Assembly: GCF_040183065.1 (NCBI RefSeq)
Contig: NC_091119.1
Location: forward strand, 206,419,298-206,483,297
Source: Periplaneta americana
Lineage: Eukaryota; Arthropoda; Insecta; Blattodea; Blattidae
Reading direction: 5' to 3'
DNA length: 64,000 nt
Position numbers and translations under genes: made by a program. This document shows, piece after piece, positions 7,639 through 62,310 of the stretch (the stretch's first letter is position 1; every line of letters starts with the position of its first letter). The notes beneath the pieces were generated by a model, which was not told the origin of the DNA, ran no database searches, and saw nothing but the letters and a program-made list of their open reading frames with translations.

Positions 7639-7720
7639 ATGAGTGTTAACAGTATACTGTCAGCAGTACAACTAGTAGTTAGCATAACAGCTGTTGTAAT
7701 ACTAATGATGACAGTGGATT
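7639..7720 (+). CDS. OBP gene A exon 1 (candidate signal-peptide exon)
   Basis: From ATG at 7639, preceded by AAC, 27 codons encode a strongly hydrophobic stretch beginning MSVNSILSAVQLVV, then one base and a GTAATG donor, the same donor used by exon 2. Phase 1 fits exon 2. Unlike genes B and C it lacks a clear signal-peptidase site and the shared x-H-x...G ending, and no TATA box is evident upstream. A different first exon farther upstream cannot be excluded. Confidence 0.45.
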
Positions 7721-10700
7721 GTAATGATTATGTCTAAGCCGAAGATATTCTCGTATTTTTTCCATTATACTTTAAGGGGAGAGGATGGTATTTTTGAAGA
7801 AAAATGACTAAATTTTCAAAACAAAAATCTTTAAAATACCCTTTGATATGTCTGGAATGCATTGCATAACATTTTGTGGGTATTTGTGCCCTTATCGGAT
7901 GTTGAGACGTCATTTTTAAACTTCCTGCGCTACGGATTTTTAAATCACACGCCCGCTTTTATCGGTTTCCAGTAACTTCATTGTTTTTGCTACATTGCCA
8001 GACAAAAATGGATATAATTTCTGTAACTGTTAAAGATACATACATGAAATTTAGAACACACATTCTTTAGACTATTAGGAAACTTTTCTCTGTAACAGAA
8101 TTTTGTTAATTGATTTCATTTTAAAAATACGTCCGTTTGTTTGCAAGAAAGGAAATCAGGAAATTGTTATTAAATTTTAATTGTTTATTTTACAAACGTA
8201 GGGACTAATATCAAAATTCTGTTACAGACAGTTTGCAGAACATACTTTTGCAAATACATTGCAAAAACTGTTTGAATCTATCTTTAAAAACGGTTTAGAT
8301 ATATCGGTTTTAGTACAATCCTGCATTGGGTATATTTTTTTCAAATTTGAGCCCCCTAATAATTTTTTTAAATATTTTTATTTGGTTGAGTTGCCACAGC
8401 TATGAGCTCTCTAAATACAAAAAAATCAATAATTTACACCAAATAGGAAAAGAGTTTTAAAAAATACCATCCTCTCCCCTTAGTGATAACACTGTGTATG
8501 TTACAGATATTCTTAACATGTTGGAGTTAAACTTCAACAAGGACAAAAATGAACTACTGGACCACTCAAGACAAGCGAGACAAACTGGCGAAGAAGAGTA
8601 CGCGCAAATTATGGAACATTCTCTGGTAATGAAGCAGTAAAGTCTGTCATCCTAAACAAATTCTGTTTGTCCTATTAATTATTAAGTTAAAACTACATAC
8701 AAAAATTTATCATCTCCTTTCGTATTGGGTCTATAAATGTACAGTATATTTTGTTTTCTCATTTGGAAATACATTATATATAATATAATGTAATATTGCA
8801 AGTCTAAATTCCGAGTGATTGTTTAGAAGTTGTTTCAAATTCAGTAATTTTAAGGCGGAGTGCTCAGTTTTAGTCATGTTGAAGTGTTTATTGATTTCTT
8901 GTGGAAGTTCTAGAAATAGTTCTCCACAGTTTACCAATATTTCAATATTGATGGAATAAAGTATTAATGTATGTTATTTCTATATATGATTTCATAAAAA
9001 TTTGTTGGGTATTGTTTAGTTAAGTTTGAATACTTATACAAAATTAATAAGTTTCAATTGTGTACAAATTGAGTTTAAAAAGTTATAAATAGAAACACTC
9101 TGTGAAAAATTAATTACTACAATTAATGAGAGCTAATTTATTATCGTTTGAAGCAGATTAATTCGTTTCTAAACTGTTCTAAACTTGACGGAAAATGAAC
9201 ATCTCTCCTCCGAGCTGGAATTTTGTCAAAATCGCTGCGATGCACTTAGCTGTGGGCATACATGTACGAGGAAGGGTCAAAAAGTAACCTTAATAACTGT
9301 TTTATTAATTGATTATGTACAATAAGACTACAGACACTTCATCACTTATTTTAATATTCGATACACTTTTCTATTTCGTTGACTTAGCAACACTGAATTT
9401 GTACAGAAGTATCAGGTGTGGGTAATTTTTGAAAAGCTCTTAATGAGCATTATTCAAAAATAAAAAAATTTCTTGGGTGTTCCATTTAAATAAGAGAGTT
9501 GGAGGTACTTCCGGTAAAACCGGAAGTAGAAAAAACTCGGTAATACCATTATTGAGTTCTTAGCATATGGTTATCCCCATGTACCAATTTTCATGTCACT
9601 GAACCACATGCTTCAAAAGTTATTTAAGTGGTTATTAAGGTTACTTTTCGACTCAGCCTCCTATAACGTATTAATTGTATTGTATTGTATTTATTAACAT
9701 TCCATGGTATTCATACATGCTTACAGCTAGAATATGGAACAAGTCAAGAAACTTAATACTATTACAAAGTCTTAATTTATAGTCACAGTCTAGATGAAAT
9801 ATATACAGACGAGATTTACAATATAGTCTACTAGTACAACACAAAGTTTTAGTATCAATTTCATGAAGTGTTATTGAATGTCATGAATTCACCTACAGAA
9901 TAGAAGCCGTGAGAAATTAGGTACTTCTTTAATTTGGCCCTAAATAATCTCAAGTTTTGAGTTTCATTTTTTATATCGATAAGGAGGCTATTAATAAAAT
10001 TACTGCCATAGAACGCACTCCTTTTTGATAGCACGATAGACTTGCCGATGGAGTATGAAAATCATTTTTTGACGTGTATTTATGCTATGAACTGTTGAAT
10101 TAGTTACAAAGTTTTCAGGATTGCATACGAGGAAGATTATTAATGAAAAGATATACTGACAAGGCATGGACATTATTTGTAGTTTTTTGAACATAGTCCT
10201 ACACGATTCCCTAGATTTGGCACCTACTATTATTCTAATTACTCTTTTTTGTAATAGAAATATACTGTTACTATCCGTGGAATTTCCCCAGAATATTATT
10301 CCAAAAGTCATTACCGAGTGGAAGTATGCAAAGTATATTGTTTTTAAGGTATTGATATTTACTATCTTTTGCATAGATCTAATAGCAAAACAAGCTGAAT
10401 TTAGATTGGGGGTAATTTCTTTAATATGATTTTTCGAATTTGACACATTATCGATTTTTAAGCCAAGAAATTTGGTTGTTGTTGTTTCTAAAAGGGCTCT
10501 ATTATTAATTATTGCGCTAGAAATTTGCGACATTCAATTTGGACAGGATTTAAATTGAATTATGTTATTTTTGTTACAATTTAATACTAATTTATTGACT
10601 GAGAACCAGTCACACATTTGAAGAGAATTTCCCCTGTTGAAGATTGGAATGTGTTGGAGTTATTGGCTGTAATTACTATACCTGTGTCGTCTGCAAATAA

Positions 10701-13700
10701 TATGGGATGACCTACATCTTTTACTAGGGGGGCAAGATCATTTATAAACACTAGAAAAAGTAGGGGACCTTATAGTTGCTATCAATAAGAACGAATTCAT
10801 TTCACTTCTATTCTTTCAGATATGTTGTCAGTACCGCTCAGAAGGGGAACATCACCAGAAGGAACAAGAAGGAAAAATAACTGAAAAATGCAGTGCCCCC
10901 TACACAGGTATGTTTCGTGCTGTGACAGTTGTATTTTATGACAGAGGTTTCCAATTGCGTACAGTGGTCACTTTCTCTCTGTTGACTGCCAATTTATGTT
11001 CTATGGTACCTACTACTAATAATTCTTTAGCCACTCTGAAATTATCTATCGGATCAATCCAGTACAAATGTGTTTCTAACATCTTTTTAAGTCTTAAATA
11101 CGATATATTCTTTCTTTTTGTTTTTATTTTAGTTGACATTACACGTCTCGTAATCTTTCTTTTTTCTTTCTACTGTATCTTCGTTTTTCTTGCTTTTTTT
11201 TATTAAGTTAGATTAATTACAGACTATAAATTCACCTAAGTGATTTATCTGTGTTTAAATTTAAGTTCTTTTATATTTATATCCTTGTGTTTTATAACTA
11301 ACTTTTTTGTGTAATAATAGACTATATTTTTACCTGTAAATTTATTTGTAATTTATAATTTTTAAGTAAATAAAATAATATTATTTCAATGTACCGAAGT
11401 ACATATGATATTTCCATGCAGATATTCTGCGTCATCATACGATGGAAGAGTAATGGAACGGAGAAAAATTCTCTCCGGCGCCGGGACTTGAACCCGGGTT
11501 TTCAGCTCTACGTGCTGATGCTTTATCCACTAAGCCAAACCGGATACAACCCCGACGCCGAACAGAATCGTCTCTGATTGAGTTCCAACTCTTGGGTTCC
11601 CTCTAGTGGCCGCCCTTTGCACTACGTCATAGATGTCTATGAACATCGGACCGAAGTCCACACATGTGCTCAGGTGCACTCGTTATGAGTGACTAGTTGG
11701 CCGGGATCCGACGGAATAAGCGCCGTCTTAAATCACTTCGTGATTTACGCATATCATATATGATAAAATAAATTTTCGTTTATAAATTCGCCTATGCCAC
11801 TATGTATTGGTATGATGCCGATATCTTTATATAAGATTCTTAATTTTCGTTATTCAAATTCTCATAATAAATGTTTTAAAATGTTGAAATGTTAAATACT
11901 ACTGATTTGAATTTCGTGTTTAATTCTAGTACGGAAGTAGCTTTGATGTATCGATAGTTATACGATGATTTATAAAAAGTTTCAACAAGCGTTTTCCTGT
12001 TATTTAGTTAAATGTCCGAAAACAATGAAGAATACTTATTAGAAAATTTCGTCATTAACTTGTAATATCTGAAGGTAAAAAGTTAGCCCCTTCTCATGCC
12101 TTGAAGACACTTGAAGAACATGATGGTAGAGCCCCATGCACTACAATGAGGTGGTGTGGCCGGCACCACGCCTTTTACCCCCGGGAAAGACCCGATAGGC
12201 TACTTAATTGGTAGGAGGCTGGGTGAACTTCGGGGCCGTTCTGGAAGTTTGACAAAGAGAAAATCCCGTCATCACCCGGGTCGAACACTGGACCTTCCAC
12301 CCCGTTGCCAGCTGCTCTACCAACTCAACTACCAAGTCGCCCATGTAGTTTGTAAAAAAATGTAATAATGCAAACACTTGTACATTAAAATTTATATTTT
12401 GGAGAAACGCTTTCGTCAGTTCAAATGTCATCAGGTCCTTCTTGTTGAAAAAAATGTTCAATGAGCACTCCATTTACACCAAGTATATGACGTTGGTCAT
12501 TAACTCTAGTAACATGATGTTATTTTTAAAGCATGTTTAAGACTTTAACTCAAGGTTAATTCTTAACTCTTCTAGAAATGTATTTTGTAACAATAATGAT
12601 TTAGGGCTTGGGATAGATGATTTGAATTTGCAATTTATAAATTCAGTAACAAATTTGACAAATACAACAGGTAATTTTAACACCTCGTTCAACAAAATAA
12701 ATGTTGACCGCTGTTCGCAAGTAGGATAGCCCGTTTTAAGATACCTGTTCAAATTTCCATGGTTGAAGTCTGCGTGCAAGATTCAGCTAATTAAACTTTT
12801 GATTTTGTGATTTTAATACAAAGCGATACAGATTAATTTATTCGAATTCTGTTCACAGAAGATGCACACAAACCTGGCGCCAAAGAAGTAAACGACATGA
12901 CGGTAAGATCAAATTAAGGATTCCGCGTTAACATCATAAGAATGTTGTTATTTCATACCTAACACATAACTTCACATTTATCGAGATTTTCAATTTTTTG
13001 CAGTGTTACCTTGAGTGCCTCTACAAGAACCACAACTCTGTGAGTACTCCACCTAACGTGGACGTTTCTTAAGATTATGGAAGAAAAAAAAATCAATTCC
13101 TGTAAGATTTTCAACACACAAACAATTTGCGCAACAAGAGTCGTCATGCAAACACGTTGGCTGTGTATGTTGTGGATTAAGTTTCAATTCAGTCGAAAGT
13201 GTTTGAAATTATTTACGCAACACATTGTTGCGCAACAGTCTGAAACGTGTGTGGCAGTGATTAACAAGACGCACACAAACAAGACAAAGTAAAGTGGCAA
13301 ATAATTCCTGTACGGACGATATCTCTACTCTCATATTTGAATCTATTGTAAAAGGATATGTAACCATTTCCAGTAGCTCACCAAACGAGGTAGGATTCAT
13401 CCGTATATAATTTTTGTAAGCTGCAAGTAAATACAGATGCTTGTTTATGCGGATGACGTGAATATGTTAGGATAAACTCCACAAAAGATTAGGAAACGCA
13501 CAGGAATTTACTTGAACCAAGATAGATTTGGAAGTACATGCCGAAGTATATGATTATGGTCCACACCTGTGCAGTAACGGTCAGCGCGTCTGCCTGCGAA
13601 ACCAGGTGGCCCGGGTTCGAATCCCGGTCGGGACAAGTTACCTGGTTGAGGTTCATTCCGGGGTTTTCCCTCAACCCAATACGAGCAAATGCTGGGTAAC

Positions 13701-14001
13701 TTTCGGTACTGGATCCCGGACTCATTTCACCGGCATTATCACCTTCATTTCATTCAGACGCTAAATAACCTATATGTTGATACAGCGTCGTAAAATAACC
13801 CAATAAAATAAGTATATGATTATGTCTCGTGACAACATAGTACTAAATTCAAATTCAAATTTTTTACAATTTACATTTGAAATGAATACATATGAATAGA
13901 TACCCGAAATGAGCATATGCTCGTGCTCGGGTACAGTCCAGTAGTCTACATAAATTTTACAGGGATCAAATAATAATGCTGATGATAGAAATAATAGTAA
14001 C

Positions 14002-14047
<46 letters not shown>

Positions 14048-15215
14048 GCATAATCGTGACATAAATGATACAAAGATTGTAATACAAAATAATTAAATAA
14101 TAATAATAATAAAATAATAGTGATAAAACAAAAATATTTACAATAATAAAATAAATACTAAGACGGATAAAATAAAATATAAAACCACTAGCGAGAGTTA
14201 ACACAACTTAAATAAGCATATAATAACCGGAAAAAATGCCAAACTCGAAAATCAACAGAAAAGTTCGTTGTATCGTAGACGACAGCAACCGCCGTATTGA
14301 CATTGTGTTGTGCATTAATGGTAGTAGGGGGGAGCCGAAAGTAACTGCCGTTCTCTTCGAATCTTCTCGTACAATCATGGGAAGTTAAAGGTGCAAAAAC
14401 AAAATGTATACGAGTCAAACTGTTCATTATTACCAGGATAACTACAAATAATACTGAAATATATTAATCTAGTTTCAGTTATAGATCTCCCCTTTTGTGC
14501 AAGAGGTATCATATCAAAATATTTTATGAATGGCGGGGAAAATACAAATTTCAAGAACTCTCTAGTGACAAGAGATAGCAATGAAAATATAAAAATTGGA
14601 AATTTATCTTTTGAAAAGGTGGAAAAGTTCAAATATCTTGAAGCAACACAAACAAATATCAACGTCACTCGGGAGGAAATTAAACGCAGAATAAATATGG
14701 GAAATGCGTGTTATTATTCGGTTAAGAAACTTCTGTCATCCAGTCTGCTGTCAAAAAACCTAAAAGTTAGAATTTATAAAACAGTTATATTACCGGTTCT
14801 TCTGTATGGTTGTGGAACTTGGACTCTCACTTTGACAGAGGAACAGAGGTTAAGGGTGTTCGAGAATAAGGTGGTTAGGAAAATATTTGGGCATGAGGGG
14901 AGTGAAGTCACAGAAAATGGAGAAAGTTACACAGCGCAGAACTGTACGGATTGAATTCTTCATCTGACATAATTAGGAATACTAAATCCAGACGTTTGAA
15001 ATGGGCACAGCATTTAGCACGTATGGACGAGTCCAGAAATGGATATAGAGTGTTACTTGGGAGGCCGAGATGTAGATGGAAGGATAATATTAAAATGGAT
15101 TTGAGGGATGTAGATAGAGACTGGATTAATCTTGGACAGGATAGGGACCGATGGAGGGTTTATGTGAGGGCGGCGATGAACCTCCGGGCTCTTTAAAAGC
15201 TATTTGTAAGTAGTA

Positions 15216-15269
<54 letters not shown>

Positions 15270-15646
15270 GCTTTATTTAACCTGGTAGAGCTAAGGCTGT
15301 ATGACCTTTTATACTCAACCAGGATTAAAACTTGCTTACATAATTGAACATACAACTATATCGGATTTAACTAATTACATACAGATAAGATTTACATAAT
15401 GAGATCAAATCAAAAGAGGTATTTAAATAAAAATTTACCTAATAAAGTAAAAATAAACATAGTGGAATGCATATTAATATTATTAGAATCAAACACGAAT
15501 CACATAAAATCAGAAGCGGATAATTCTATAAAGTGTACACAATAAAAATAAAAATAAACACATTGGAATACATATTAATATTAAATTAGAAGCAAGTAGG
15601 ATTCACATAATTGAACCAGAAACCGATCACTGAATAAAATGTACAC

Positions 15647-15700
<54 letters not shown>

Positions 15701-16881
15701 GTCAACACCTGTGGAGTAACGGTTAGCAAGTCTGGCCGTGAAACCAGGTGGCCCGGGTTCGATTCCCGGTCGGGGCAAGTTACCTGGTTGAGGTTTTTTC
15801 CGGGGTTTTCCCTCAACCCAATATAAGCAAATGCTGGGTAACTTTCGGTGCTGGACCCCGGACTCATTTCACCGGCACTATCACCTTCATCTCATTCAGA
15901 CGCTAAATAACCTAAGCTGTTGATAAAGCGTCGTAAAATAACCTAGTAAAATAAATAAAAAAAAATAATAATAATAATCATAAAAAGAAGAAGAAGAATA
16001 AATGAAACATAGTGTAATATAACTCATCATAAGATATTCTTCTAATTAATAATTGGAAGAAAAGTTCGCTAGCCCTTGACTTCAGGAGGCAGAGAATTCC
16101 AGTGACGAGAAGTAGCAACAGTGAAAGATGAGGAATACAGAGATGATGTGTGGAGTGAAATTTCTAGCGTGTTATCGTGTTGTGACCGAGTATTTAAGTT
16201 ATGATAGCGAGGAAGATTGTGGAATCGAACAAATAAGTAATAAGGGGCAGAAGTGTAAAAAATTCGGTATAGCCTAAGAGAGAAAGAAAATGTAACTTTC
16301 TCGTCTCGTAAAACCTGAGCCACGATAATTTATCGAAGGAAGTTGAAAAGTGTTCGTAGTAGTGTACATTACAAATGAAACGAACACACGCATTATGAAC
16401 ACGTTGCAGTTTCTGGGATAAATCCACCCCGAGATCACTGAATAAAGCGTCACAATAATCGAAATGAGGCATAATAAGATTCTGTACAAACATCTGCTTT
16501 AATTTAGCTGGATAGTGGTACAATCTTTTTAATGAGTGAAGAGTGAAAAATACTTTCTTGCATGTGTGTTTGATATGCGTGTCCCAGGTAAGGTTAGATT
16601 CAAAATGAACTCCCAGGTTTTTTTACAGTTGAATTGAATGGAATGATCGCTTTATTCAGAGTCATTGGAGGAAGGTTCAGCTTATTAATATCGGGGATTA
16701 ATCTCCTGCCAAATCCTAATTAATCACATGGTGCCACATTAATAGCAATTGTAATTTTTCACACCCTTTTCTTCGTTTCCCTTCATTAAAATTTAATATC
16801 TATGTTTACATAATATGTATAATAATTTTTTTGAGGATATATTGAGTCCGTAAGAGCTACCCTCAATGGGAGGCAGTTTAC

Positions 16882-16927
<46 letters not shown>

Positions 16928-19900
16928 GCCCTCAGCTTCATTTTGCAAGACCTTTGATCTATTTTTATCATTCTGCTTTCAAATATCTGGATACCGTTGT
17001 AAAACAAATTAATTCAACTTAATTTGTTTACACAATCTTTTCTTATTTTAGACGGATTCAAATGGAGACGTCGTGCTTGAGGCAGCCATGAAATTGTTGA
17101 AATCTTCTGGGTTCAATGTAGACTCAGTATTGAACAAAGTACAGTCCTTCTGTGGAAAGTACAGTAAAGGTAAGGATGTACAGTTACGTTAAGTATCACA
17201 TATCTGCAGAAATTTTCCAAGTTATATCCGTTTTAAGAATACACATATTGGCATAGAGCTGGGGACGGAGCGGTTCGGTTCGTAGCAGGTACTGTGACGT
17301 CATTACTCGGTTGATCCGAGTACAGTACCGAGTACAAATTTGTGGCGGCAGATTTAAAATTTTGATGGATTGAGTCGATTTTAGAACGTACTTTGAAAGT
17401 GAAAGCAGACGTATTTTAAAAGCGTTGTAGTAAAGAACTTTTGCTTTGCCAATTGACGAGAAAAAAAAGTTCTTCGCTTCATTGCAAAATGACGGTTGCA
17501 AATATTATGTGCGTGATTATAGCTATTTTCGGAGTTATTTTATATGAACGGCATATTTAACCTTCAGTATTGTTATATATCGTCGTCTGAATGCAAGAAC
17601 TAGGTAACTCGAAATTTGCGTTTTTTAGTTACCTCTTTTATAGCTTAGCAAAAATCGCACAAAATGTAATGCAAGAACTTGGTGACTGATCGAACGATAC
17701 CAGCGACATCTATTTTCCAATATAACAAATAGGTAAATGAAAACGAGACATATTCCTTAGTGTAATAAATAAGTAAATAAGTAATGTCACAAAATATGGA
17801 AAATCAAGTTACCTAGTTGTTGCATTCACACGACGATATGACAGACGAAATAAAACTGATAAAATAATTTATAATACTAACGGCTAATAATGCCCTTTCC
17901 TGTTATAATTGGAATGGAGAAACGCTGAAAGATGATATCAGACTTGTATGGGATATCGATCTAGTGAACAGTGTGGCCGGGAGAAAAAAGGTCTTAAGTA
18001 AAAAATTTTATACTTTTCAAGAGAGCAGTAGAAACATTGAAATTGGTGTAAATTATAGACCTTTTAATGAAGAGGTTTTTCCTGAATATTATTTGTTTTT
18101 ATTTCTTCTAAAGTAGGTAATGTTGCTCATTTAACAATTTTCTTGATTATTTTCAAAGATAGCCGCACTTAAACCCTTTTAAGACTAGAATTCAAACTGA
18201 GTAAAAGGGACTATTTAAACGTAAGACCTTTCCCATGCCAAAATAAATGAGAAATGTAAATTATTAGGAATGCAAAATGGGTCTTAAACAATTATAAGAC
18301 TGTTTACCCTGGTGCTTGAAGTTTTAAAAGGAAAGGGCATCAGTATATGATAAAATGACTAAAATACAAGTTAGACCTTTTAAATAGGGAAGCATGGAAA
18401 GTAAACATGTGATGGTTTGTAAGGAATAAAGTATTAAATATTCTTAAGTCCTTTATTCTGTGTGTGCTCGATTCAAAAAGTATTTAGGACATTTGGTAAC
18501 GCTCTGTAAATCTAGTCAGGAGTCTTATTTGACTTCAGCCGTTTTACCAGATTGTAGAGAATTGTTTCCGCTTTCAGAATATATAAAAGTCTCATTTTTA
18601 CAAAAAATTGACTTAAGACATTTTTCCTCCCGGCCACATTATTAGAGGTAAATTGAAAATCAACTTTTTTCTGCGAAAATGTGTTAAAAGTGGAAATTTC
18701 AAAAGTTACGTTAGGACTACAGACAGATAATCCGGCGTACTGAGTTATGTTAATGTTTCGCTATTTATTGAATACAACCTTGATGAACTAAAGGTGTAAA
18801 TTTTTTATAATTATAGAAATGACGTCGAAAGACACTAAGAAATACACTTGCCCCCGCCAGCCACTTCACTTCATGCTGTGCGTGCAGGACGTTGCTGTCA
18901 AGGTGGGTTCTTATTCCGATTAGTTAAATGACTGGTTAAATATTAAATTATGTAGCTAATATTTTATTTAAACTAAAGACTTCAAAGATAATGATAGAGC
19001 AATATACAGGGTGATTTATTATTACGTGTAAATACTTTGTGTGTGTAATGTAGAGGTGAAACTAAGACTAAAACGTTCTATGCAACTTTTTCTCAAAACC
19101 TTTAATTCCAGAGTTCCAGTAGATGGCACCTAAGTCGTAGTAACTCCACAGGCATTACTGTTCTCCCACACATTTGGTGTGGTATTGTGGGGAATCAGTT
19201 ACTCGGACCTCGAGTTCACCTCTGCGGTTGACTGGGGAAATCTACCGCGCATTCTTGGAATGCGAATTGCATGGTCTGCTACATGATATCCCTTTTCCAA
19301 CGCGAGTGAACTTATGGTTTATGCACAATGGTGCTCCTGCGCATTACTGCCACAACGTAAGGGCGTATCTCAATGCTGCGTATCCAGGTCAATGGATAGG
19401 TCGCGCAGGACCAACTCCTTGGCCAGCCATGTCACCGAACATGAACCCTCTGGACTTCAAGTTGAGGGACAGCACTTTGAACATGCGTTACACTAAGAAT
19501 TGTGCAAATGTGTAAAGTCTAGAAGAAATTGCTTTACATTCTTTACTGTGTTTGGTTTCAGTTCACAAAACGGGCATAAGTGGACTGCCGAGGATATGGG
19601 TTTAGTGACTTTGGTTGTTTTTGTATTGAAGTCCAAATGCACTGTACGAAAGTTTACATTTGGCGTGTTATCCTTTATTTGTTTGGGAGCGCAAGTTCCA
19701 CGAAAAATGACGTTAACTATGGAAATAAAGGTTTTAAGAAAAAGTTGTATAGAACGTTTTAGTTCTTAGTCTCACCTCTACATTACACACACAAAGTATT
19801 TACACGTAATAATGAATCACCAGTATAAAAAAGACAAATGAAACCGCTGTGCATAGAGGATAACCTGCTTCAAAGAATACGCTCCAGTTGATCTCATGTC

Positions 19901-22123
19901 CATTTGATGGTAATTCGTAACCTGGCTATGCTATGGAGATCTAAATGTCGAAGCTTGCTGCCTATTAAATGTAAACCTATTATTTAAATAGTAAATCTGT
20001 TTTTTTACAGTATTGTCCCAAGGAACTGTGGCAATCAAGTAAGTACCGCTTCAGAATAAGATTAAATTCAATATTTTCACCATCTATTAAAAATGAATTT
20101 CCCATTGTATTCTATACAATGATTATATCAGAGCTCGGATTTTTGTAACATGTAATATTTTTATGTCTTTTCGCAAACTTAAGTTGAATTAAACACATTA
20201 CTAACTTTTAATGTGACATGAAGAAAATTGAATTTGAGCTCTGTTAGTTACAGCTGCTATAACTACAAGAAAAGAAATAATTTCTATTTCAAATCTACTC
20301 TTTAATAATTCCAAATAATAAATATAATTCCATCTACCAAAATGTTATATTCATGAAATCGCTATTAATATACAAACGTCCCCAATCCGATTAGATAAGC
20401 CGTAATTATACCAGAATTCCTTTATTAATTTGTTTACCTTTTTATTTAAAGACTTTAGTATTATTAGTTAGATTCTTAGAAGGTTGACATTATTTTTATT
20501 GGTCATATAATTGCATGTTTTAGCATTAAGTCTTATTTGACGAAAATGGTACAAAATCATATTTTTTTGTTGTACTACAATTTTTTAACAGTTTTCTAAA
20601 TATTATTCACATGTTTTCTGCCAATAATAGGTAGAGATTTTGCTTCCGTTTAGTTACTTATTTCGTATTTCATTTATTTAGAATATCTGTGTTTAAATGC
20701 AGTTTGAAGGTAAATAGATTTGCCAGTAGTAAGTTGTCAAAACATAAAGTACAAAACAATTTAAAGAATATGGCGAGATTGTTGCTAGTCGGTCTTGCCT
20801 TCTCCCAAACATATGACGTTTAAGATGTTCCAATCCCGTTGTTTCAAGGTAGTAATTCATAAACAGTCAGTGGCCTTGTTAACATAGCTACAGAAGAATT
20901 AGTCACGGAGGGGGCAAGCGTTCGACAATTTTCACTCCTATTTCTCCCCGCCTTCTATTTTATAGGCTGAACAGTTCGCTATGCCCAATACAAGGAGATA
21001 ATATTCACATAAAAATGCTGTAGAATGATGAATATAAATTCTAAGTAAATTTAGGATAACATTGAATTCGTTTTGCGTTATATATTCAAGAAGTTATGTT
21101 ATATCTTGGTATTTAGGGTATAAGTGCAAGAATATCTCCAAATTATTTTTAGGTCATAGAAGTTCGACACTAATTATATTTTAAATATTATTATAATGTA
21201 CCGAAGTACATATGATATTTCCATGCATATATTTTGCGTCATCATACGATAAAAGAGTAATGGAACGGAGAAAAATTCTCTCCGGCGCCGGGATTTGAAC
21301 CCGGGTTTTCAGCTCTACGTGCTGACGCTTTATCCCCTAAGCCACACCGGATTCCACCCCGGCGTCGGAAGAATAGTCTCAGTTTTAAGTTCCAACTCTT
21401 GAGTTCCCTCTAGTGGCCGCCCTCTGCACTACGTCATAGATGTCTATGAACCTAGGACCGAAGTCTACACTTGTGCTGAGGTGCACTAGAAGGAACCCAA
21501 GAGTTGGAACTTAAAACTGAGACGATTCTTCCGACGCCGGGGTGGAATCCGGTGTGGCTTAGTGGATAAAGCGTCAGCACGTAGAGCTGAAAACCCGGGT
21601 TCAAATCCCGGCGCCGGAGAGAATTTTTCTCCGTTCAATTACTCTTTCATCAACTAATTATATTGCCAGACACTAACTACAGAATTAATAATAGACCTAA
21701 TGAAAGCTTTGTACTAACTTTTTCATGAAGGTGAAGTGAAAAAATAACTCAAATATCTCATTTTTGAGATGGACGGTTAGATAAAAATAAGTTGGTTGAG
21801 AAAGCTACGCAAGGATGGAAGAATGGTTACTGTATGGAGTAAATTATACAAATTAAAAAGTCAAGAAACTTAGGATTGCATTTAGATTGGAATTTAACTT
21901 TTCAAAATAAAATAACCTACAAAGTTATGCAACAAAAATGTTTGTATAATTTATTCCCTCGAAAACTTATCCAAGTTCCACCACTTAGTCTCAAAATGAA
22001 TTTCATACAAACGTTAGTGATGTCTCGCTTAGATTCTATATTAACGAACCTGAATACTGATCTCGTCGACCGACTACAATATCTGCGTTCCTGTCGTTTG
22101 CAAATTTAGAAAAATTCGATCAT

Positions 22124-22173
<50 letters not shown>

Positions 22174-23118: not shown

Positions 23119-23180
<62 letters not shown>

Positions 23181-24837: not shown

Positions 24838-24883
<46 letters not shown>

Positions 24884-25037
24884 GTTACTAAAATTTTTCG
24901 GAATGGATGAAAATATATCATTTTAACAGTTTCATTCCCTAAAACATGATTACGAAGACTCCTGCTTGTATATTTCAGATAATCTTGAGAGATGTGAGAA
25001 GCGCAGAGAAGAACTCAAAGACGTGTTCAACGACTAA
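7639..25037 (+). CDS. OBP gene A: Plus-C type odorant-binding protein, 9 exons
   Basis: This is an assembled spliced gene. Exons are 7639-7720, 8507-8625, 10820-10907, 12859-12902, 13004-13039, 17052-17169, 18817-18902, 20011-20038 and 24979-25037, giving 660 nt and 219 aa. Intron phases are 1,0,1,0,0,1,0,1. The predicted product is a secreted carrier for small hydrophobic ligands. It has a hydrophobic N-terminus, a charged linker (about residues 28-67), then cysteines at 69, 70, 91, 112, 116, 157, 174, 184, 193 and 206. Spacing C112-X3-C116-X40-C157 and C174-X9-C184-X8-C193-Pro194 followed by X11-C206 fits the Plus-C OBP signature (extra cysteines before C1, between C4 and C5, and after C6, with a proline after C6). 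The C157-C174 gap of 16 is slightly short. The same architecture recurs in gene B 5.7 kb downstream. Exons 2-9 are well supported; exon 1 is the best candidate only. The function is inferred from family, and a non-olfactory carrier role is possible. Confidence 0.8.
7775..8480. mobile_element. MITE filling intron 1 of gene A
   Basis: AGGGGAGAGGATGGTATTTT at 7775 is repeated inverted at 8461-8480, and both ends are flanked by TA. No coding sequence lies inside. Without it the intron would be about 80 bp. Confidence 0.8.
8507..8625 (+). CDS. OBP gene A exon 2
   Basis: The acceptor TGTTACAG precedes it and the donor GTAATG follows. The translated part (ILNMLELNFNKDK..., charged linker before the cysteines) aligns with exon 2 of gene B through shared FN, SR-A-R and E-x-YA motifs. 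It enters at phase 1 and leaves at phase 0. Confidence 0.75.
9267..9661. mobile_element. mariner-like MITE
   Basis: The left end holds GGGTCAAAAAGTAACCTTAA and the right end an inverted near-copy (GAGTCGAAAAGTAACCTTAA). TA flanks both ends (9265-9266, 9662-9663). Such GGTCAAAAAGTAAC ends are typical of mariner relatives. It lies in intron 2 of gene A. Confidence 0.7.
9672..10800 (-). mobile_element. LINE relic (family Lc, Jockey/CR1-like) with RT core
   Basis: On the minus strand, 10790-10680 reads GPLLFLVFINDLAPLVKDVG then PILFADDTGIV, with the reverse-transcriptase FADD catalytic box. Further on, 10533-10000 encodes the thumb and C-terminal region (TTTTKFLGLKIDNV..., YFAYFHSVMTFGIIFWGNST). 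Its 3' end carries a TTGTA-type tail. It is 5'-truncated, with frame breaks between the two blocks. It lies in intron 2 of gene A in antisense orientation. Confidence 0.8.
10820..10907 (+). CDS. OBP gene A exon 3 (CC doublet and first core cysteine)
   Basis: The acceptor TTTCAG precedes it and the donor GTATGT follows. It encodes ICCQYRSEG... ending at KCSAPYT. The double cysteine at its start and the single cysteine 20 residues later match exon 3 of gene B (RCC...DDC). Phase is 0 in, 1 out. Confidence 0.85.
11389..11767 (-). mobile_element. tRNA-like SINE/fold-back element (family T), copy 1
   Basis: The minus strand contains a cloverleaf-like core (GGCTTAGTGGATAAAGCATC, GGGTTCAAGTCCCGGCGCCG) followed by GAGAATTTTTCTCC. 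The outer end is the near-palindrome ATGTACCGAAGTACAT. It shares its full length with 21.2 and 56.4 kb copies. It lies in intron 3 of gene A. Confidence 0.75.
12089..12341 (-). mobile_element. tRNA-derived SINE (family U)
   Basis: The minus strand starts GGCGACTTGGTAGTTGAGTT, with a box A-like GTTGGTAGAGCAGC and a box B-like GTGTTCGACCC, then GACGGGATTTTCTC and a body ending near GGCATGAGAAGGGG. It is a different head from families S and T. Confidence 0.7.
12859..12902 (+). CDS. OBP gene A exon 4
   Basis: The exon is 44 nt between acceptor TTCACAG and donor GTAAGA. It encodes the spacer DAHKPGAKEVNDMT that leads into the C-X3-C exon. The intron after it is only 101 bp, the shortest in the gene. 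Exon 4 of gene B is 47 nt with the same phases. Confidence 0.8.
13004..13039 (+). CDS. OBP gene A exon 5 (C-X3-C)
   Basis: The exon is 36 nt and encodes CYLECLYKNHNS, the C2-X3-C3 motif of the OBP fold. The acceptor follows a T-rich tract ending TTTTTTGCAG and the donor is GTGAGT. Gene B exon 5 is also exactly 36 nt (CFTQCVFRKNNV). Confidence 0.88.
13559..13809 (+). mobile_element. SINE family S, copy 2 (full length)
   Basis: A 251-bp element with intact box B-like GGTTCGAATCCCGG. It is flanked by perfect 15-bp duplications AAGTATATGATTATG at 13544-13558 and 13810-13824. The tail region ends GCGTCGTAAAATAACCCAAT. It lies in intron 5 of gene A. Confidence 0.92.
13990..14046. repeat. (TAA)n microsatellite
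   Basis: A run of about 55 bp of AAT/TAA units. Further short TAA clusters follow at 14098-14112. Confidence 0.9.
14526..15206 (+). mobile_element. LINE 3' fragment (family La), copy 1
   Basis: It encodes NIKIGNLSFEKVEKFKYLEA, then YKTVILPVLLYGCGTWTLTL and, after a frame break near 14950, KWAQHLARMDESRNGYRVLL...NIKMDLRDVDRDW. This is the thumb and C-terminal end of a LINE reverse transcriptase. It ends near GTAAGTAGT. It lies in intron 5 of gene A. Confidence 0.8.
15210..15267. repeat. (TAA)n microsatellite
   Basis: About 55 bp of TAA repeats at the tail of a minus-strand LINE end. Confidence 0.9.
15648..15700. repeat. (TAA)n microsatellite
   Basis: About 50 bp of TAA units directly before SINE copy 3. 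Confidence 0.9.
15701..15957 (+). mobile_element. SINE family S, copy 3
   Basis: Full-length, with GTAACGGTTAGCAAG (box A-like) and GGTTCGATTCCCGG (box B-like). The shared 3' domain ends at GCGTCGTAAAATAACC and is followed by an A-rich tail. Confidence 0.88.
16881..16927. repeat. (TTA)n microsatellite
   Basis: A pure run of about 46 bp. Confidence 0.9.
17052..17169 (+). CDS. OBP gene A exon 6
   Basis: The acceptor TTATTTTAG precedes it and the donor GTAAGG follows. It encodes TDSNGDVVLEAAMKLLKSSG... to the C4 cysteine in FCGKYSK. It aligns with gene B exon 6 (LDDNGAVIASAATKYLLQ...ICSKRKS). Confidence 0.88.
17575..17842. mobile_element. Short MITE in intron 6 of gene A
   Basis: ATATCGTCGTCTGAATGCAA at the left end and its inverted near-copy (TGCATTCACACGACGATAT) at the right continue into GAACTAGGTAACT/AGTTACCTAGTTG. 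The inverted repeat is about 37 bp and the element about 268 bp, without coding sequence. Confidence 0.7.
17973..18638. mobile_element. MITE with GTGGCCGGGAG ends
   Basis: TGTGGCCGGGAGAAAAAAGG at the left and its inverted near-copy (ACATTTTTCCTCCCGGCCAC) at the right extend about 30 bp inwards. No transposase is present inside. It lies in intron 6 of gene A. Confidence 0.65.
18817..18902 (+). CDS. OBP gene A exon 7 (C-X9-C)
   Basis: The acceptor ATTATAG precedes it and the donor GTGGGT follows. It encodes MTSKDTKKYTCPRQPLHFML through CVQDVAVK. The C-X9-C spacing is the Plus-C extra cysteine followed by C5, and it matches gene B exon 7. Confidence 0.88.
19007..19823 (+). mobile_element. IS630/Tc1-mariner deletion derivative
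   Basis: Both ends carry an inverted repeat of about 105 bp beginning CAGGGTGATTTATTATTACG (right end inverted CTGGTGATTCATTATTACG), flanked by TA. The interior encodes only the C-terminal part of a transposase: VNLWFMHNGAPAHYCHNVRA then GQWIGRAGPTPWPAMSPNMN, the D(G)APAH and W-P-SP-MNPLDF boxes of the DDE/D domain. The N-terminal half is missing and the frame ends early. It lies in intron 7 of gene A. Confidence 0.85.
20011..20038 (+). CDS. OBP gene A exon 8 (C6-Pro)
   Basis: This 28-nt exon encodes YCPKELWQS. The cysteine lies 8 residues after C5 and is followed by the proline diagnostic of Plus-C OBPs. The acceptor is a T7-tract ending ACAG and the donor is GTAAGT. Gene B exon 8 is also 28 nt. 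Confidence 0.85.
21196..21486 (-). mobile_element. tRNA-like element (family T), copy 2
   Basis: Same ATGTACCGAAGTACATATGA end, GAGAATTTTTCTCC hairpin and tRNA-like core as copy 1, ending within the TAGTGGCCGCCC body. It abuts a copy in the opposite direction. Confidence 0.75.
21487..21650 (+). mobile_element. tRNA-like element (family T), copy 3, inverted against copy 2
   Basis: The + strand reads GGAACCCAAGAGTTGGAACT, then TCCGGTGTGGCTTAGTGGAT, the T-arm CCGGGTTCAAATCCCGG and a closing CGCCGGA that pairs with TCCGGTG. Together with copy 2 it makes a palindrome of more than 300 bp in intron 8 of gene A. Confidence 0.75.
22125..22172. repeat. (TAA)n microsatellite, left of Helitron-like element
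   Basis: About 48 bp of TAA units. The series resumes at 23120 on the other side of the element. Confidence 0.9.
22173..23119 (+). mobile_element. Non-autonomous Helitron-like element
   Basis: It starts TCTATACTAATTTTCC right after an A and ends GGGTACGGCTAG before a T, as Helitrons do (5' TC, 3' CTAG, insertion between A and T). No terminal inverted repeats and no Rep/helicase coding are present. The interior has GTCTGTCTGTCTGGATGTTTG and CGATAATGGCTGAACCGAT, common near the 5' ends of such arthropod elements. Confidence 0.6.
23120..23240. repeat. (TAA)n microsatellite and minus-strand LINE tail
   Basis: TAA units run to about 23180. The following block (AATGGCAGAGTTAAGGCCAT, TTCTCTTCCATTCAACCAG) resembles LINE tails with paired ...CTGGT.../...ACCAG... 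ends. Confidence 0.6.
24095..24760 (-). mobile_element. LINE 3' fragment (family Lc), copy 2
   Basis: Nearly parallel to 9672-10270, with the same TTGTA tail and TTCCATGGTATTCATACATG block. The minus strand encodes ADSNSIFLLQKRVIRI-type residues (TDSNSIFLLQKRVIRIIVGA) and a CQYIFSLIIFLVCNRENF segment with a frame break at a T-run near 24612. It lies in intron 8 of gene A. Confidence 0.8.
24840..24890. repeat. (TTA)n microsatellite
   Basis: About 48 bp, 90 bp upstream of gene A's last exon. Confidence 0.9.
24979..25037 (+). CDS. OBP gene A exon 9 (terminal)
   Basis: The acceptor TATTTCAG precedes it. It encodes NLERCEKRREELKDVFND then TAA at 25035. The cysteine 12 residues after Pro194's neighbour C193 is the extra C-terminal Plus-C cysteine. 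An AATAAA lies 80 bp downstream. Confidence 0.85.
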
Positions 25038-25605: not shown

Positions 25606-25769
25606 GACAAAAATTCCATCGAAGAACAGCTTTGAAGAATAGGAGATATGATTGGATGATTGGTACGTGGGATCTGATGTGAGTATATCTACAAACTGGT
25701 GTACACGTTAGGAAAAAACTTCAAATTTTAGACTTTCTTACGGAAGAATAGTTACTCCTTTGAATATAT

Positions 25770-30773: not shown

Positions 30774-48645
<17,872 letters not shown>

Positions 48646-48792: not shown

Positions 48793-48798
48793 AATAAA
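48793..48798 (+). terminator. Poly(A) signal of OBP gene B
   Basis: AATAAA lies 148 bp after the stop codon and is followed by a TTCTTTTC run and then TGT-rich sequence, a normal animal 3' end arrangement. Confidence 0.65.
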
Positions 48799-49480: not shown

Positions 49481-49735
49481 AACATTAAAAGCTTAAGAAT
49501 TATAATCATCATCATCATCATCATCATCATCTCTGTACGTCGATCCTTTTTCAGCAGATGTACGAATAATTCGGTTAGCTCTTCAATTTTAGACCAAATT
49601 GCAGGAAACTGCCTAATAACAGCAAGGCCAACAAAAGGCTTGTGTAGAAATATATTCCGGTAAAGCTGATATCGCAGAATCATAAAGGATATTCAGATAA
49701 CAGTGTCCATATATAGTTAAGAAACTATTTGTGAA

Positions 49736-50098
49736 GTCACACCAAACGATGACTTTGAAATCCTGAAGTCCATGTTCGATGACAATGTCACACCAAACGA
49801 TGACTTTGAAATCCTGAAGTCCTTGTTGGATGACAATGTCACACCAAACGATGACTTTGAAATCCTGAAGTCCTTGTTGGATGACAATGTCACACCAAAC
49901 GATGACTTTGAAATCCTGAAGTCCTTGTTGGATGACAATGTCACACCAAACGATGACTTTGAAATCCTGAAGTCCTTGTTAGATGACAATGTCACACCAA
50001 ACGATGAGTTTGAAATCCTGAAGTCCTTGTTGGATGACAAGGTCACACCAAACGATGAGTTTGAAATCCTGAAGTCTTTGTTGGATGACAATGTCTCT
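49736..50098. repeat. 51-bp in-frame minisatellite, about 7 units, open on both strands
   Basis: The unit CACACCAAACGATGACTTTG...TTGTTGGATGACAATGT is 51 bp, or 17 codons. The + frame (49772-50104) repeats NVTPNDDFEILKSLLDD. The minus frame (50112-49717) repeats GVTLSSNKDFRIS with SKSSF. Differences between units are few (T/G at DDF/DEF). No start context, splice partner or family was recognised, so coding status is unknown. Confidence 0.85.
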
Positions 50099-50829
50099 AA
50101 CTGAAAGACCAAATATAATGATTATAATGATGATGATGGTGAGACCTGCGATCAGGAAATGAAAATATTAAAATAAAATCACTCGATTTCAACAATGTGG
50201 AGTACTAAAGGAGACGTAAACTTGCTTGATAAAAGTAATTTTTCATATTGGCCTAATTATATGTTCAATTGAAATCGTTTCATATTAAACATTCAAGGGC
50301 ACAACCGATCCAAATAATTAACTTCAAAATACCAAAATACCCCTAGAGCTACTAGGTAACAAAATAAGATTTATCACCCTTGCTTGCAGTATTTCTTCAT
50401 TGTTGTCCAATTTTATATCATGCCAGTGAACCTAAATTTGTAATGGTTCAATTTATAAATATGTCATATATCTTATAAAATTGCATACAGATTCACTTGG
50501 ATTATTAGTAATATTTCTCTGCTTACGAAAATAAATTGATGTAACACGTGTTTTGAAACATAGGTCAAGAAAATGAATCGTGAGTAAGAATAGTATTGAA
50601 AACATGATAGAAATACTGAAGACATAGAATGAAAGGTTATGTCACATCTTCATGACATGCATTGATCATTTTGAAATAACTATGGTGTAATGAGGGGAGG
50701 TGAGTGAGGTTTGGGAGGAGGATTAATTGTACAGATATTGTTCAGTTAAGTAAAATAACGGATTGGTTTTTTAATGCATAAATGTTTAAACGGAAATACG
50801 TACTTTATTGCTTACACTGGCACCATTTA

Positions 50830-52058: not shown

Positions 52059-53170
52059 ATCTTAGATTTTATACACAATGTTTGAAGACAAGGCAGTATA
52101 AGTGGTTAGTTATAAACCCATTCCGTTCCACTGACGAATATTAAAATACCAAATTTGAAACATGTAGTATACAGGGTGTAAACCAGACATCGCAAAACGT
52201 TACAAATTCAAGGCGCAATGTAAATACTACCCGCTACACACAAAGTGAAGGTTTTATACACAATGTTTGAAGACAAGGCAGTATAAGTGGTTAGTTATAA
52301 ACCCATTCCGTTCCACTGACGAATATTAAAATACCAAGTTTGAAACATGAGGTATACAGAGTGTAAACCAGACATCGCAATACGTTACAAATTCAAGGCG
52401 CAATATAAATACTACCCGCTACACACAAAGTGAATATTTTATACACAATGTTTGAAGACAAGGCAGTATAAGTGGTTAGTTATAAGCCCATTCCGTTCCA
52501 CTGACGAATAGTAAAATACCAAGTTTGAAACATGTAGTATACAGGGTGTAAACCAGACATCGCAAAACGTTACAAATTCAAGGCGCAATATAAATACTAC
52601 CCGCTACACACAAAGTGAATATTTTATACACAATGTTTGAAGACAAGGCAGTATAAGTGGTTAGTTATAAGCCCATTCCGTTCCACTGACGAATATTAAA
52701 ATACCAAATTTGAAACATGTAGTATACAGGGTGTAAACCAGACATCGCAAAACGTTACAAATTCAAGGCGCAATATAAATACTACCCGCTACACACAAAG
52801 TGAATATTTTATACACAATGTTTGAAGACAAGGCAGTATAAGTGGTTAGTTATAAGCCCATTCCGTTCCACTGACGAATATTAAAATACCAAATTTGAAA
52901 CATGTAGTATACAGGGTGTAAACCAGACATCGCAAAACGTTACAAATTCAAGGCGCAATATAAATACTACCCGCTACACACAAAGTGAATATTTTATACA
53001 CAATGTTTGAAGACAAGGCAGTATAAGTGGTTAGTTATAAGCCCATTCCGTTCCAATGACGAATATTAAAATACCAAGTTTGAAACATGTAGTATACAGG
53101 GTGTAAACCAGACATCGCAAAACGTTACATATTCAAGGCGCAATATAAATACTACCCGCTACACATAAAG

Positions 53171-53343
53171 TGAAGAAATGTTATGTTTTATTTAACGACG
53201 CTCGCAACTGCAGAGGTTATATCAGCGTCGCCGGATGTGCCGGAATTTTGTCCTGCAGGAGTTCTTTTACATGCCAGTAAATCTACTGACATGAGGCTGT
53301 CACATTTAAGCACACTTAAATGCCATCGACCTGGCCCGTAAAG
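53171..53343. mobile_element. SINE fragment inside the satellite, copy 1
   Basis: TTTATTTAACGACGCTCGCA...GCCATCGACCTGGCCCG is the tail part of a dispersed tRNA-derived SINE family, in minus orientation and cut before its tRNA-like head. It is bounded on both sides by AAAGTGAAG, the satellite junction. Confidence 0.6.
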
Positions 53344-54453
53344 TGAAGATTTTATACACAATGTTTGAAGACAAGGCAGTATAAGTGGTTAGTTATAAGC
53401 CCATTCCGTTCCACTGACGAATATTAAAATACCAAATTCGAAACATGTAGTATACAGGGTGTAAACCAGACATCGCAAAACGTTACAAATTCAAGGCGCA
53501 ATATAAATACTACCGGCTACACACAAAGTGAAGATTTTATACACAATGTTTGAAGACAAGGCAGTATAAGTGGTTAGTTATAAACCCATTCCGTTCCACT
53601 GACGAATATTAAAATACCAAATTTGAAACATGTAGTATACAGGGTGTAAACCAGACATCGCAAAACGTTACAAATTCAAGGCGCAATATAAATACTACCC
53701 GCTACACACAAAGTGAAGGTTTTATACACAATGTTTGAAGACAAGGCAGTATAAGTGGTTAGTTATAAACCCATTCCGTTCCACTGACGAATAGTAAAAT
53801 ACCAAGTTTGAAACATGTAGTATACAGGGTGTAAACCAGACATCGCAAAACGTTACAAATTCAAGGCGCAATATAAATACTACCGGCTACACACAAAGTG
53901 AATATTTTATACACAATGTTTGAAGACAAGGCAGTATAAGTGGTTAGTTATAAGCCCATTCCGTTCCACTGACGAATATTAAAATACCAAATTTGAAACA
54001 TGTAGTATACAGGGTGTAAACCAGACATCGCAAAACGTTACAAATTCAAGGCGCAATATAAATACTACCCGCTACACACAAAGTGAATATTTTATACACA
54101 ATGTTTGAAGACAAGGCAGTATAAGTGGTTAGTTATAAGCCCATTCCGTTCCACTGACGAATATTAAAATACCAAATTTGAAACATGTAGTATACAGGGT
54201 GTAAACCAGACATCGCAAAACGTTACAAATTCAAGGCGCAATATAAATACTACCCGCTACACACAAAGTGAATATTTTATACACAATGTTTGAAGACAAG
54301 GCAGTATAAGTGGTTAGTTATAAGCCCATTCCGTTCCAATGACGAATATTAAAATACCAAGTTTGAAACATGTAGTATACAGGGTGTAAACCAGACATCG
54401 CAAAACGTTACATATTCAAGGCGCAATATAAATACTACCCGCTACACATAAAG

Positions 54454-54626
54454 TGAAGAAATGTTATGTTTTATTTAACGACGCTCGCAACTGCAGAGGT
54501 TATATCAGCGTCGCCGGATGTGCCGGAATTTTGTCCTGCAGGAGTTCTTTTACATGCCAGTAAATCTACTGACATGAGGCTGTCACATTTAAGCACACTT
54601 AAATGCCATCGACCTGGCCCGTAAAG
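54454..54626. mobile_element. SINE fragment inside the satellite, copy 2
   Basis: Appears identical in sequence and position within the monomer to 53171-53343, exactly 1283 bp later. It was copied with the satellite, not inserted twice. Confidence 0.65.
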
Positions 54627-56439
54627 TGAAGATTTTATACACAATGTTTGAAGACAAGGCAGTATAAGTGGTTAGTTATAAGCCCATTCCGTTCCACTGA
54701 CGAATATTAAAATACCAAATTCGAAACATGTAGTATACAGGGTGTAAACCAGACATCGCAAAACGTTACAAATTCAAGGCGCAATATAAATACTACCGGC
54801 TACACACAAAGTGAAGATTTTATACACAATGTTTGAAGACAAGGCAGTATAAGTGGTTAGTTATAAACCCATTCCGTTCCACTGACGAATATTAAAATAC
54901 CAAATTTGAAACATGTAGTATACAGGGTGTAAACCAGACATCGCAAAACGTTACAAATTCAAGGCGCAATATAAATACTACCCGCTACACACAAAGTGAA
55001 GGTTTTATACACAATGTTTGAAGACAAGGCAGTATAAGTGGTTAGTTATAAACCCATTCCGTTCCACTGACGAATAGTAAAATACCAAGTTTGAAACATG
55101 TAGTATACAGGGTGTAAACCAGACATCGCAAAACGTTACAAATTCAAGGCGCAATATAAATACTACCGGCTACACACAAAGTGAAGATTTTATACACAAT
55201 GTTTGAAGACAAGACAGTATAAGTGGTTAGTTATAAACCCATTCCGTTCCACTGACGAATATTAAAATACCAAATTTGAAACATGTAGTATACAGGGTGT
55301 AAACCAGACATCGCAAAACGTTACAAATTCAAGGCGCAATGTAAATACTACCCGCTACACACAAAGTGAAGGTTTTATACACAATGTTTGAAGACAAGGC
55401 AGTATAAGTGGTTAGTTATAAACCCATTCCGTTCCACTGACGAATAGTAAAATACCAAGTTTGAAACATGTAGTATACAGGGTGTAAACCAGACATCGCA
55501 AAACGTTACAAATTCAAGGCGCAATATAAATACTACCCGCTACACACAAAGTGAATATTTTATACACAATGTTTGAAGACAATGCAGTATAAGTGGTTAG
55601 TTATAAGCCCATTCCGTTCCACTGACGAATAGTAAAATACCAAGTTTGAAACATGTAGTATACAGGGTGTAAACCAGACATCGCAAAACGTTACAAATTC
55701 AAGGCGCAATATAAATACTACCCGCTACACACAAAGTGAATATTTTATGCACAATGTTTGAAGACAAGGCAGTATAAGTGGTTAGTTATAAATCCATTCC
55801 GTTCCACTGACGAATATTAAAATACCAAGTTTGAAACATGAGGTATACAGAGTGTAAACCAGACATCGCAAAACGTTACAAATTCAAGGCGCAATATAAA
55901 TACTACCCGCTACACACAAAGTGAATATTTTATACACAATGTTTGAAGAAAAGTAGTATAAGTGGTTAGTTATAAACCCATTCTGTTCCACTGACGAATA
56001 TTAAAATACCAAGTTTGAAACATATAGTATACAGGGTGTAAACCAGACATCGCAAAACGTTACAAATCCAAGGCGCAATATAAATACTACCCGCTACACA
56101 TAAAGTGAAGACAAGTGGTGGAAGCATCGTCGCAGTAAGCTAGACAGCAGCAGGAATGGTTTGTGATCGTCACTACCTTCCGTGTTCATAACATGAAGTA
56201 ACAAGAGAAAGAAGGAATGTTTTCTTTACATGAAATTTTTGGAAAAAAAAATTTCTAAGTAGGTATCTTTCAATCTTTCAAAATTCAGGAAATCAATTAA
56301 AACTAAAATATCATTAATGTATACAATAATTATTACTCCATTATATTATTGCATAATATTTTGCATTTATTTTACAATTGTATTATTTAATATTTTTCAT
56401 TTCAGTTTATTAATTGTACTTTCTAGTTAACCGAATCTT

Positions 56440-56770
56440 CTATGATGAAAGAGAGATGGAACGGAGAAAAATTCTCTCCGGCGTCGGGATTTGAACCCGG
56501 GTTTTCAGCTCTACGTGCTGATGCTTTATCCACTAAGCCACGCCGGATACAATCCCGACGCCGTTTAGAATCGTCTCAGATTAAGCTCCATCTCTTGGGT
56601 TCCCTCTAGTGGCCGCCCTCTGCACTACGTCATAGATGTCTATGAACGCAGGACCGAAGTCCATACATGTGTTGAGGTGCACTCAAATGAGTGACTGATT
56701 GGCCGGGATCCGACGGTATGAGCGCCGTCTTAAATCACAAAGTGATTTATTACGCATATCATATATATTT
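56440..56770 (-). mobile_element. tRNA-like element (family T), copy 4
   Basis: Same GAGAATTTTTCTCC hairpin, tRNA-like core and TAGTGGCCGCCCTCTGCACT body as copies 1 and 2. It ends near GCATATCATATAT. Confidence 0.75.
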
Positions 56771-56771
56771 T

Positions 56772-56978
56772 GATGTACCGAAGTACATATGATATTTCCA
56801 TGCAGATATTCTGCGTCATCACATGATGGTGGCTTAGTGGATAAAGCATCAGCACGTAGAGCTGAAAACCCGGGTTCAAATCCCGACGCCGGAGAGAATT
56901 TTTCTCCGTTCCATCTCTCTTTCATCATGTGATGACGCAGAATATCTGCATGGAAATATCATATGTACTTCGGTACAT

Positions 56979-60590: not shown

Positions 60591-60659
60591 GTTATTGGCT
60601 GCATAGATGCATTGTCGTCCTGCTCAAGGTTTTCCCGTGGTTTCCCTTGAGCGATAAGA

Positions 60660-61871: not shown

Positions 61872-62237
61872 TTAAATGTTGGAGGTTATTAATATTCTTC
61901 AGCTGCATCAGAAATTACGTACTAATAATCTTTTGGGATGAAGACAATTAGCCTACCTATAATTGGAAATTTATGCATTACTAAGAGCACAAGTAATTAA
62001 TTGCTATCTTTTTCACAGATATTAGCCTACCATTGACTGCAATGGGAAATGCTATTATCGTAAAATATGAAACACGTGAGCGTTACGTAATATTGACATT
62101 ATGATGCTTTATTATCAAGAGCAAAGTTTTTAGATGACGTTAGTTGATCTACACCGGATGCTGAATAACCGGAAGTTAAATTACATATCGGAGAGATGCG
62201 GTGTGTCGGCAGCAAACGTTCTCGACTCCGCTTCAGA
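61872..62237. promoter_or_regulatory. Upstream region of OBP gene C
   Basis: 366 bp between element K copy 1 and the start codon. No canonical TATA box is evident. It presumably holds the proximal promoter. Confidence 0.35.
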
Positions 62238-62310
62238 ATGGCTGTGGCCAGCATCGTACTGTGCCTGTTGTTTACAAGTGTCATATCTTCTGCATATCAC
62301 ACCGATCTAG
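62238..62310 (+). CDS. OBP gene C exon 1 (signal peptide; gene leaves the window)
   Basis: The ATG at 62238 (context CAGA) opens MAVASIVLCLLFTSVISSA, a clean signal peptide with likely cleavage after Ala19, then YHTDL and one base before donor GTAGGT. Length class, phase 1 and the short post-signal tail ending at a glycine-type split codon resemble gene B exon 1 (TFHINTEF-G). No matching exon 2 appears before 64000, so only the first exon is visible. Calling it an OBP rests on position and exon form, not on cysteines. Confidence 0.6.

Follow-up and report, generated by a model that had tools for sequence, protein, structure and literature searches.

Genes of the window

The window analysed here, a 64,000-nucleotide stretch of the Periplaneta americana genome (positions 206419298–206483297 of contig C3, in an assembly of 3.23 Gb and 91 contigs), contains two complete genes for Plus-C odorant-binding proteins (OBPs), A6 and A7, together with the first exon of a third, A8. 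A6 and A7 display nine exons each, separated by introns that are all GT-AG and have identical phases, and in both genes exon 5 measures 36 nt and exon 8 measures 28 nt. The original prediction had described two nine-exon OBP genes and a third first exon on the + strand, with exons of 28–121 nt, and these sizes are confirmed. Its statement that frame-based gene finding misses every exon is nearly correct: 3/18 exons of the two predicted genes sit in frame within open reading frames (ORFs) of at least 100 aa and none appears as a gene in the ORF list, although NCBI annotation does find the genes. Nor are they hidden to the extent proposed, as both proteins are predicted by NCBI, though only as 'uncharacterized protein', a title shared by all four P. 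americana records concerned (P0001–P0004; for P0001 the database lists PF01395).

The spliced A7 product is identical to P0001 over 219/219 residues, in agreement with all nine exons predicted for this gene. Eight of the nine exons predicted for A6 stand: exons 2–9 (8507–25037) reproduce the last 191 residues of P0002 and are now joined to a new first exon. In the following list exons 2–9 of A6 all derive from the splice rebuild and P0002, and all exons of A7 from the splice rebuild and P0001; further evidence is given in brackets.

1487..1571, + strand: A6 exon 1, putative signal peptide (85 nt; phase-1 donor gtaagt; leader like that of A5, the upstream neighbour; donor 1571 used by P0002)
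7405..7474, + strand: A6 alternative 70-nt exon, NCBI isoform X2 (letter-for-letter rebuild of P0002)
8507..8625, + strand: A6 exon 2 (exon-chain finder)
10820..10907, + strand: A6 exon 3, CC motif (exon-chain finder)
12859..12902, + strand: A6 exon 4 (exon-chain finder)
13004..13039, + strand: A6 exon 5, 36 nt, C-X3-C (exon-5 pattern)
17052..17169, + strand: A6 exon 6 (exon-chain finder, leave-one-out)
18817..18902, + strand: A6 exon 7, C4a-X9-C5 (exon-chain finder, leave-one-out)
20011..20038, + strand: A6 exon 8, 28 nt, C6-P (exon-8 listing, leave-one-out)
24979..25037, + strand: A6 exon 9 with stop (leave-one-out; AATAAA at 25117)
30774..30852, + strand: A7 exon 1, putative signal peptide (TATAAA 47 nt upstream of the ATG)
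33099..33208, + strand: A7 exon 2 (exon-chain finder)
35785..35893, + strand: A7 exon 3, CC motif, C1 (exon-chain finder)
39274..39320, + strand: A7 exon 4 (array modelling; missed in the one-profile run)
40416..40451, + strand: A7 exon 5, 36 nt, C-X3-C (exon-5 pattern)
41915..42035, + strand: A7 exon 6 (exon-chain finder)
44708..44787, + strand: A7 exon 7 (exon-chain finder)
44894..44921, + strand: A7 exon 8, 28 nt (exon-8 listing)
48596..48645, + strand: A7 exon 9 with stop (exon-chain finder; AATAAA at 48793)
62238..62310, + strand: A8 exon 1, putative signal peptide (splice rebuild, array modelling)

Supplied with nothing but the other gene's peptides and the position of exon 5, the exon-chain finder recovered, in this one-profile run, 7/7 of A6 exons 2–4 and 6–9 and 7/8 exons of A7, missing exon 4. 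The listing of exon 8 used a pyrimidine filter of 0.6.

The first exon of A6 had originally been placed at an ATG at 7639, for which the phase-compatible donor found scores only -3.2 bits on our own matrix. We rejected it in favour of 1487–1571 because the latter encodes a leader like that of a similar 85-nt first-exon candidate in A5 (MHWGSEVFLVIVTHFVTSGHGFEEVYNP against MCFGYGLVLVFATHFVLFSTGLQYVYGT), lies just downstream of a 65-nt stretch weakly similar between A6 and A5 (71% identity, E 0.033), and ends at the P0002 donor, 1571. The finder also chose 1487–1571, but its donor threshold of -2.5 would exclude the 7639 exon anyway, and this choice is not independent. The first exon of A5 was itself the second-ranked candidate (10.7), the top-ranked one (18.1) being a poly-Ile stretch. 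With 1487–1571 supported as exon 1, the gene spans 1487–25037 and the region of interest therefore starts at 1487, while A7 spans 30774–48645.

P0002 is rebuilt exactly from 1557–1571, 7405–7474 and exons 2–9, and NCBI isoform X2 therefore shares donor 1571. The start of this isoform, at 1557, lies in a frame other than that of the leader; read in the frame of the 1487 leader, the 70-nt exon breaks the signal-peptide frame, a stop following at residue 55. It resembles a truncating (poison) exon, and the other member in the cluster of P0002 would be the form that lacks it.

The third first exon, 62238–62310, is plausible, and exons 2–7 of A8 were modelled 3' of the window at 65669–78621 (window numbering), with exons 6 and 7 also found in the leave-one-out run. 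However, no recognisable exons 8–9 were found for A8, the locus of which (62238 to ~87369, window numbering) extends beyond the window, and the model of exon 3 is without the CC motif. A8 may be a degenerate array member. Its missing exons and motif, and the frame-breaking exon held by isoform X2 of A6, could be taken to indicate that the genes of the window are functionless, decaying copies, but this seems very improbable to us, as A6 and A7 are open across nine exons, have kept GT-AG introns and their cysteine spacing, and are followed by polyadenylation signals. Codon position 3 is also the least conserved in 5/5 paralogue pairs, a result that protein-guided alignment favours.

The array around the window

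The tandem row proposed for the + strand is confirmed, and is larger than had been described, with most of its genes outside the window. Across 344 kb that include the window, the 36-nt exon-5 pattern has 12 matches on the + strand and 0 on the - strand, whereas 20 third-order simulations of 344 kb averaged 0.25 per strand. In the leave-one-out analysis, in which each gene was scored with the other genes' peptides only, the chain of exons 6–9 scored 88.8–182.6 for the 12 genes, compared to a maximum of 21.3 in 72 reverse-strand control trials (one of them without a chain); the lowest score, 88.8, is that of A8 and includes its distrusted exons 8–9. Exons 6–9 of a 13th gene lie upstream between -115068 and -103759 (window numbering), and the upstream edge of the array was therefore not reached, with no pattern exon 5 within 5 kb upstream of exon 6 of this gene. 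Downstream, no further pattern exon 5 was found from 184583 to 244000. The array as seen thus comprises 12 genes with exon 5 and a partial 13th in ~310 kb, with gene spans of ~11–25 kb and a phase-1 intron after the signal exon.

Stop-free translation over nine exons was obtained for eight chains (A1, A3–A7, A10 and A12), some of them changed by hand, while the unchanged models A3 and A4 equal P0004 and P0003, respectively, letter for letter. Before counting, exon 1 of A5 and exon 2 of A10 were each replaced by another candidate, exons 8–9 of A8, exon 3 of A1, exon 2 of A2 and exon 4 of A11 were removed, and exons 1 and 3 of A9 were added; exon 3 of A1 was later refilled via its CC motif. Because of these edits A2, A8, A9 and A11 are treated as partial, and the first two exons of A10 are weak. 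Three protein searches for array members had P. americana records only among their returns. We infer that the array grew through tandem duplication of genes that then diverged strongly.

Exons this short allow many spurious choices, and the first exon originally given for A6 proved wrong, both of which might suggest that the genes were assembled by eye from AT-rich noise. Chance assembly is nevertheless already refuted by the letter-for-letter identity with NCBI proteins, the recurrence on one strand and the leave-one-out scores, and we give it practically no credence.

Family assignment and other features of the window

Cysteine spacing, Pfam, profile matches in the PDB and the predicted fold of the neighbouring gene A4 point to the Plus-C subclass; the OBP cysteine framework originally proposed is thus upheld as to family, but is not that of the classic six-cysteine proteins. 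C2-X3-C3 can be read directly from the sequence of A6 and A7, while in the other array genes it formed part of the search pattern and is hence not independent. The spacing C4a-X9-C5-X8-C6 with a further C6a, described for Plus-C proteins in passages of PMC5054612 and PMC3720860, is present in 11/11 genes with exons 5–9, C6a lying 10 or 12 residues on. A1 is without C4, and A2 and A3 have one extra Cys. The interval C4-X12-21-C4a in the array reaches below the 20–33 residues given in a passage of PMC5054612. An adjacent CC before C1, a Plus-C mark according to the same passage, is found in 11/12 genes including A6 and A7 but not A8, with the CC of A1 not independent since its exon was chosen by this motif. 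A Pro directly following C6, as expected of Plus-C OBPs, is present in 8/11 genes, including A6 but not A7, which has Thr.

The Pfam profile PBP_GOBP (PF01395) matches A7 with 25.5 bits, above its cut-off of 22, while A6 alone stays below it with 13.2 bits (first exon as originally predicted) or 13.7 bits (1487–1571); a match to an OBP profile, the lack of which for both proteins had been named at the outset as a refutation, was thus obtained for one of them. Three of eight models exceed 22 bits (A4, A7, A10), A5, A6 and A12 lie below, and A1 and A3 have no match at E<=1. The profile OBP47_like matches A3 and A4 below its own cut-off. A whole-genome search with PF01395 gave no match, but also none in 14 controls, and this exon-by-exon search is uninformative.

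Searched against the PDB, a profile of seven array members returned 23 sequences at E<=1 (best E 3.1e-5), of which 20 bear OBP or PBP in their names. A7 alone gave 0 matches at E<=10, and A6 alone (with the original first exon) gave four, three OBPs and TraK, with a best E of 0.044. The predicted structure of A4, which lies outside the window, is a helical OBP fold with AgamOBP48 (PDB 4ij7) as best Foldseek match and PDB 3pm2, an Anopheles gambiae c+ class OBP, at rank 30 by VIA. We take AgamOBP48 to be a Plus-C protein and 3pm2 to be AgamOBP47. The chained models carry hydrophobic leaders, hydrophobicity itself having been used to choose exon 1; the start positions of the A3, A4 and A7 models agree with NCBI.

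A tandem array of 22 copies of a 185-bp unit (52064–56111) lies between A7 and A8, and further arrays have units of 104 bp (3545–4670, 10.9 copies), 22 bp (25768–26361, 25.9 copies) and ATCT (39704–40185, 120 copies). A 51-bp repeat (49721–50101, 7.1 copies) contains a 127-aa open frame on the + strand and open frames on the - strand too; the matches of this ORF to 13 Pfam families were rejected as an artefact, as they are sums over repeats and no single stretch passes. It was the exception among the 10 of 42 listed ORFs beyond the OBP exons that were scanned, the other nine having no Pfam match at E<=0.01; the original claim that the OBP genes are the only convincing host coding in the window was thus checked over these ten. 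Fragments resembling reverse transcriptase by eye lie at 14442–14951, 30805–31365, 38468–38938, 44161–44562 (- strand) and 10000–10533 (- strand), and the four scanned (all but 30805–31365) had no Pfam match at E<=0.01. Four sequences resembling tRNA-Tyr(GTA) (11473–11544, 21280–21351, 21548–21619, 56476–56547) and one partial copy (56829–56887) have flanks that look alike by eye, and probably belong to mobile elements instead of being tRNA genes.

Proposed role and known systems

We are highly confident that the window is best explained as part of a tandem row of + strand, nine-exon genes for secreted Plus-C OBPs, most likely soluble carriers or scavengers. The gene structure, the array, the family and the agreement with NCBI protein models are established by the present analysis: each + strand gene consists of nine short exons with constant intron phases, and its product of ~200 residues combines the OBP cysteine core with extra cysteines (CC before C1, C4a, C6a). 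Exon 1 would provide a signal peptide for secretion, and disulphides would hold the protein in a compact, helical shape around an internal pocket. Most likely, the soluble product would carry or scavenge small hydrophobic molecules in the fluid of the body or of sensilla. Tissue and ligand are guesses by analogy, and taste or a general carrier role is no less likely than smell.

It has to be considered whether the proteins have the OBP fold but work outside chemosensation, with general carrier or scavenging duties in the haemolymph, the cuticle or glands, in which case the name 'odorant-binding' would be historical. PameOBP3, the one Plus-C OBP of P. americana known to us to have been studied, is reported to be expressed in the majority of the tissues examined and, of 87 ligands, to have bound none well (Ki > 40 uM; PMC5232348), and a passage of Robertson et al. 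(PMC6175461) allows that some Blattella relatives are possibly not chemosensory; divergence within the array is strong, with 22–45% identity among seven full models. However, expression in antennal sensilla is on record for some Plus-C OBPs, for example locust OBP4 and OBP9, and we rate a non-chemosensory role as a serious possibility that falls somewhat short of even.

Counts of OBPs serve arguments on the influence of chemical ecology on genomes. In the part available, the paper on the P. americana genome (PMC5861062) states that OBPs are dramatically reduced in blattodeans, P. americana having the most of them; the paper's own count lay outside that part, but 12 genes and a partial 13th in one stretch sit badly with the statement. 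This number of genes in ~310 kb, with four NCBI records left 'uncharacterized', suggests that genes of this type are readily overlooked or left without a name. With the exon coordinates listed above, recounting them and testing their expression become straightforward. We consider the chances evenly balanced that these 13 genes are a fraction of an array of tens of unnamed Plus-C OBPs, that the reported reduction is a micro-exon artefact, and that the array goes back to an ancient expansion in blattodeans, most of its members having moved from olfaction to taste or to other work as carriers.

No paper on this array in P. americana was found among the listed results of searches of the open-access PMC literature. 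PameOBP3 (Li et al. 2017, PMC5232348), likened here by its description in part of that paper, is from the same species, is Plus-C and is of similar length (mature 215 aa). In Myzus persicae the aphid Plus-C genes OBP5 and OBP6 have nine and eight exons, respectively, and long introns, but no large array is described in the relevant passages of PMC7380018. AgamOBP48, the top Foldseek match of the A4 model, and the OBP of 3pm2 are mosquito proteins with ~20% identity. In Blattella germanica, according to sections of Robertson et al. (2018, PMC6175461), 61 genes in an array of ~1.6 Mb make up most of a 71-gene Plus-C clade among a total of 109 OBPs, the signal exon of the OBP genes is typically followed by 7–9 short coding exons, and termite relatives lie in an array too. 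The P. americana genes are of the same subclass and have eight exons after the signal exon, but differ in the phase of intron 1 (phase 1, against mostly phase 0 in the Blattella OBP genes) and in their length of ~11–25 kb compared to the 'several kilobase pairs' reported there. The two arrays, likened by published description, may be orthologous, and that of P. americana is the same kind of thing as the published Blattella Plus-C array.
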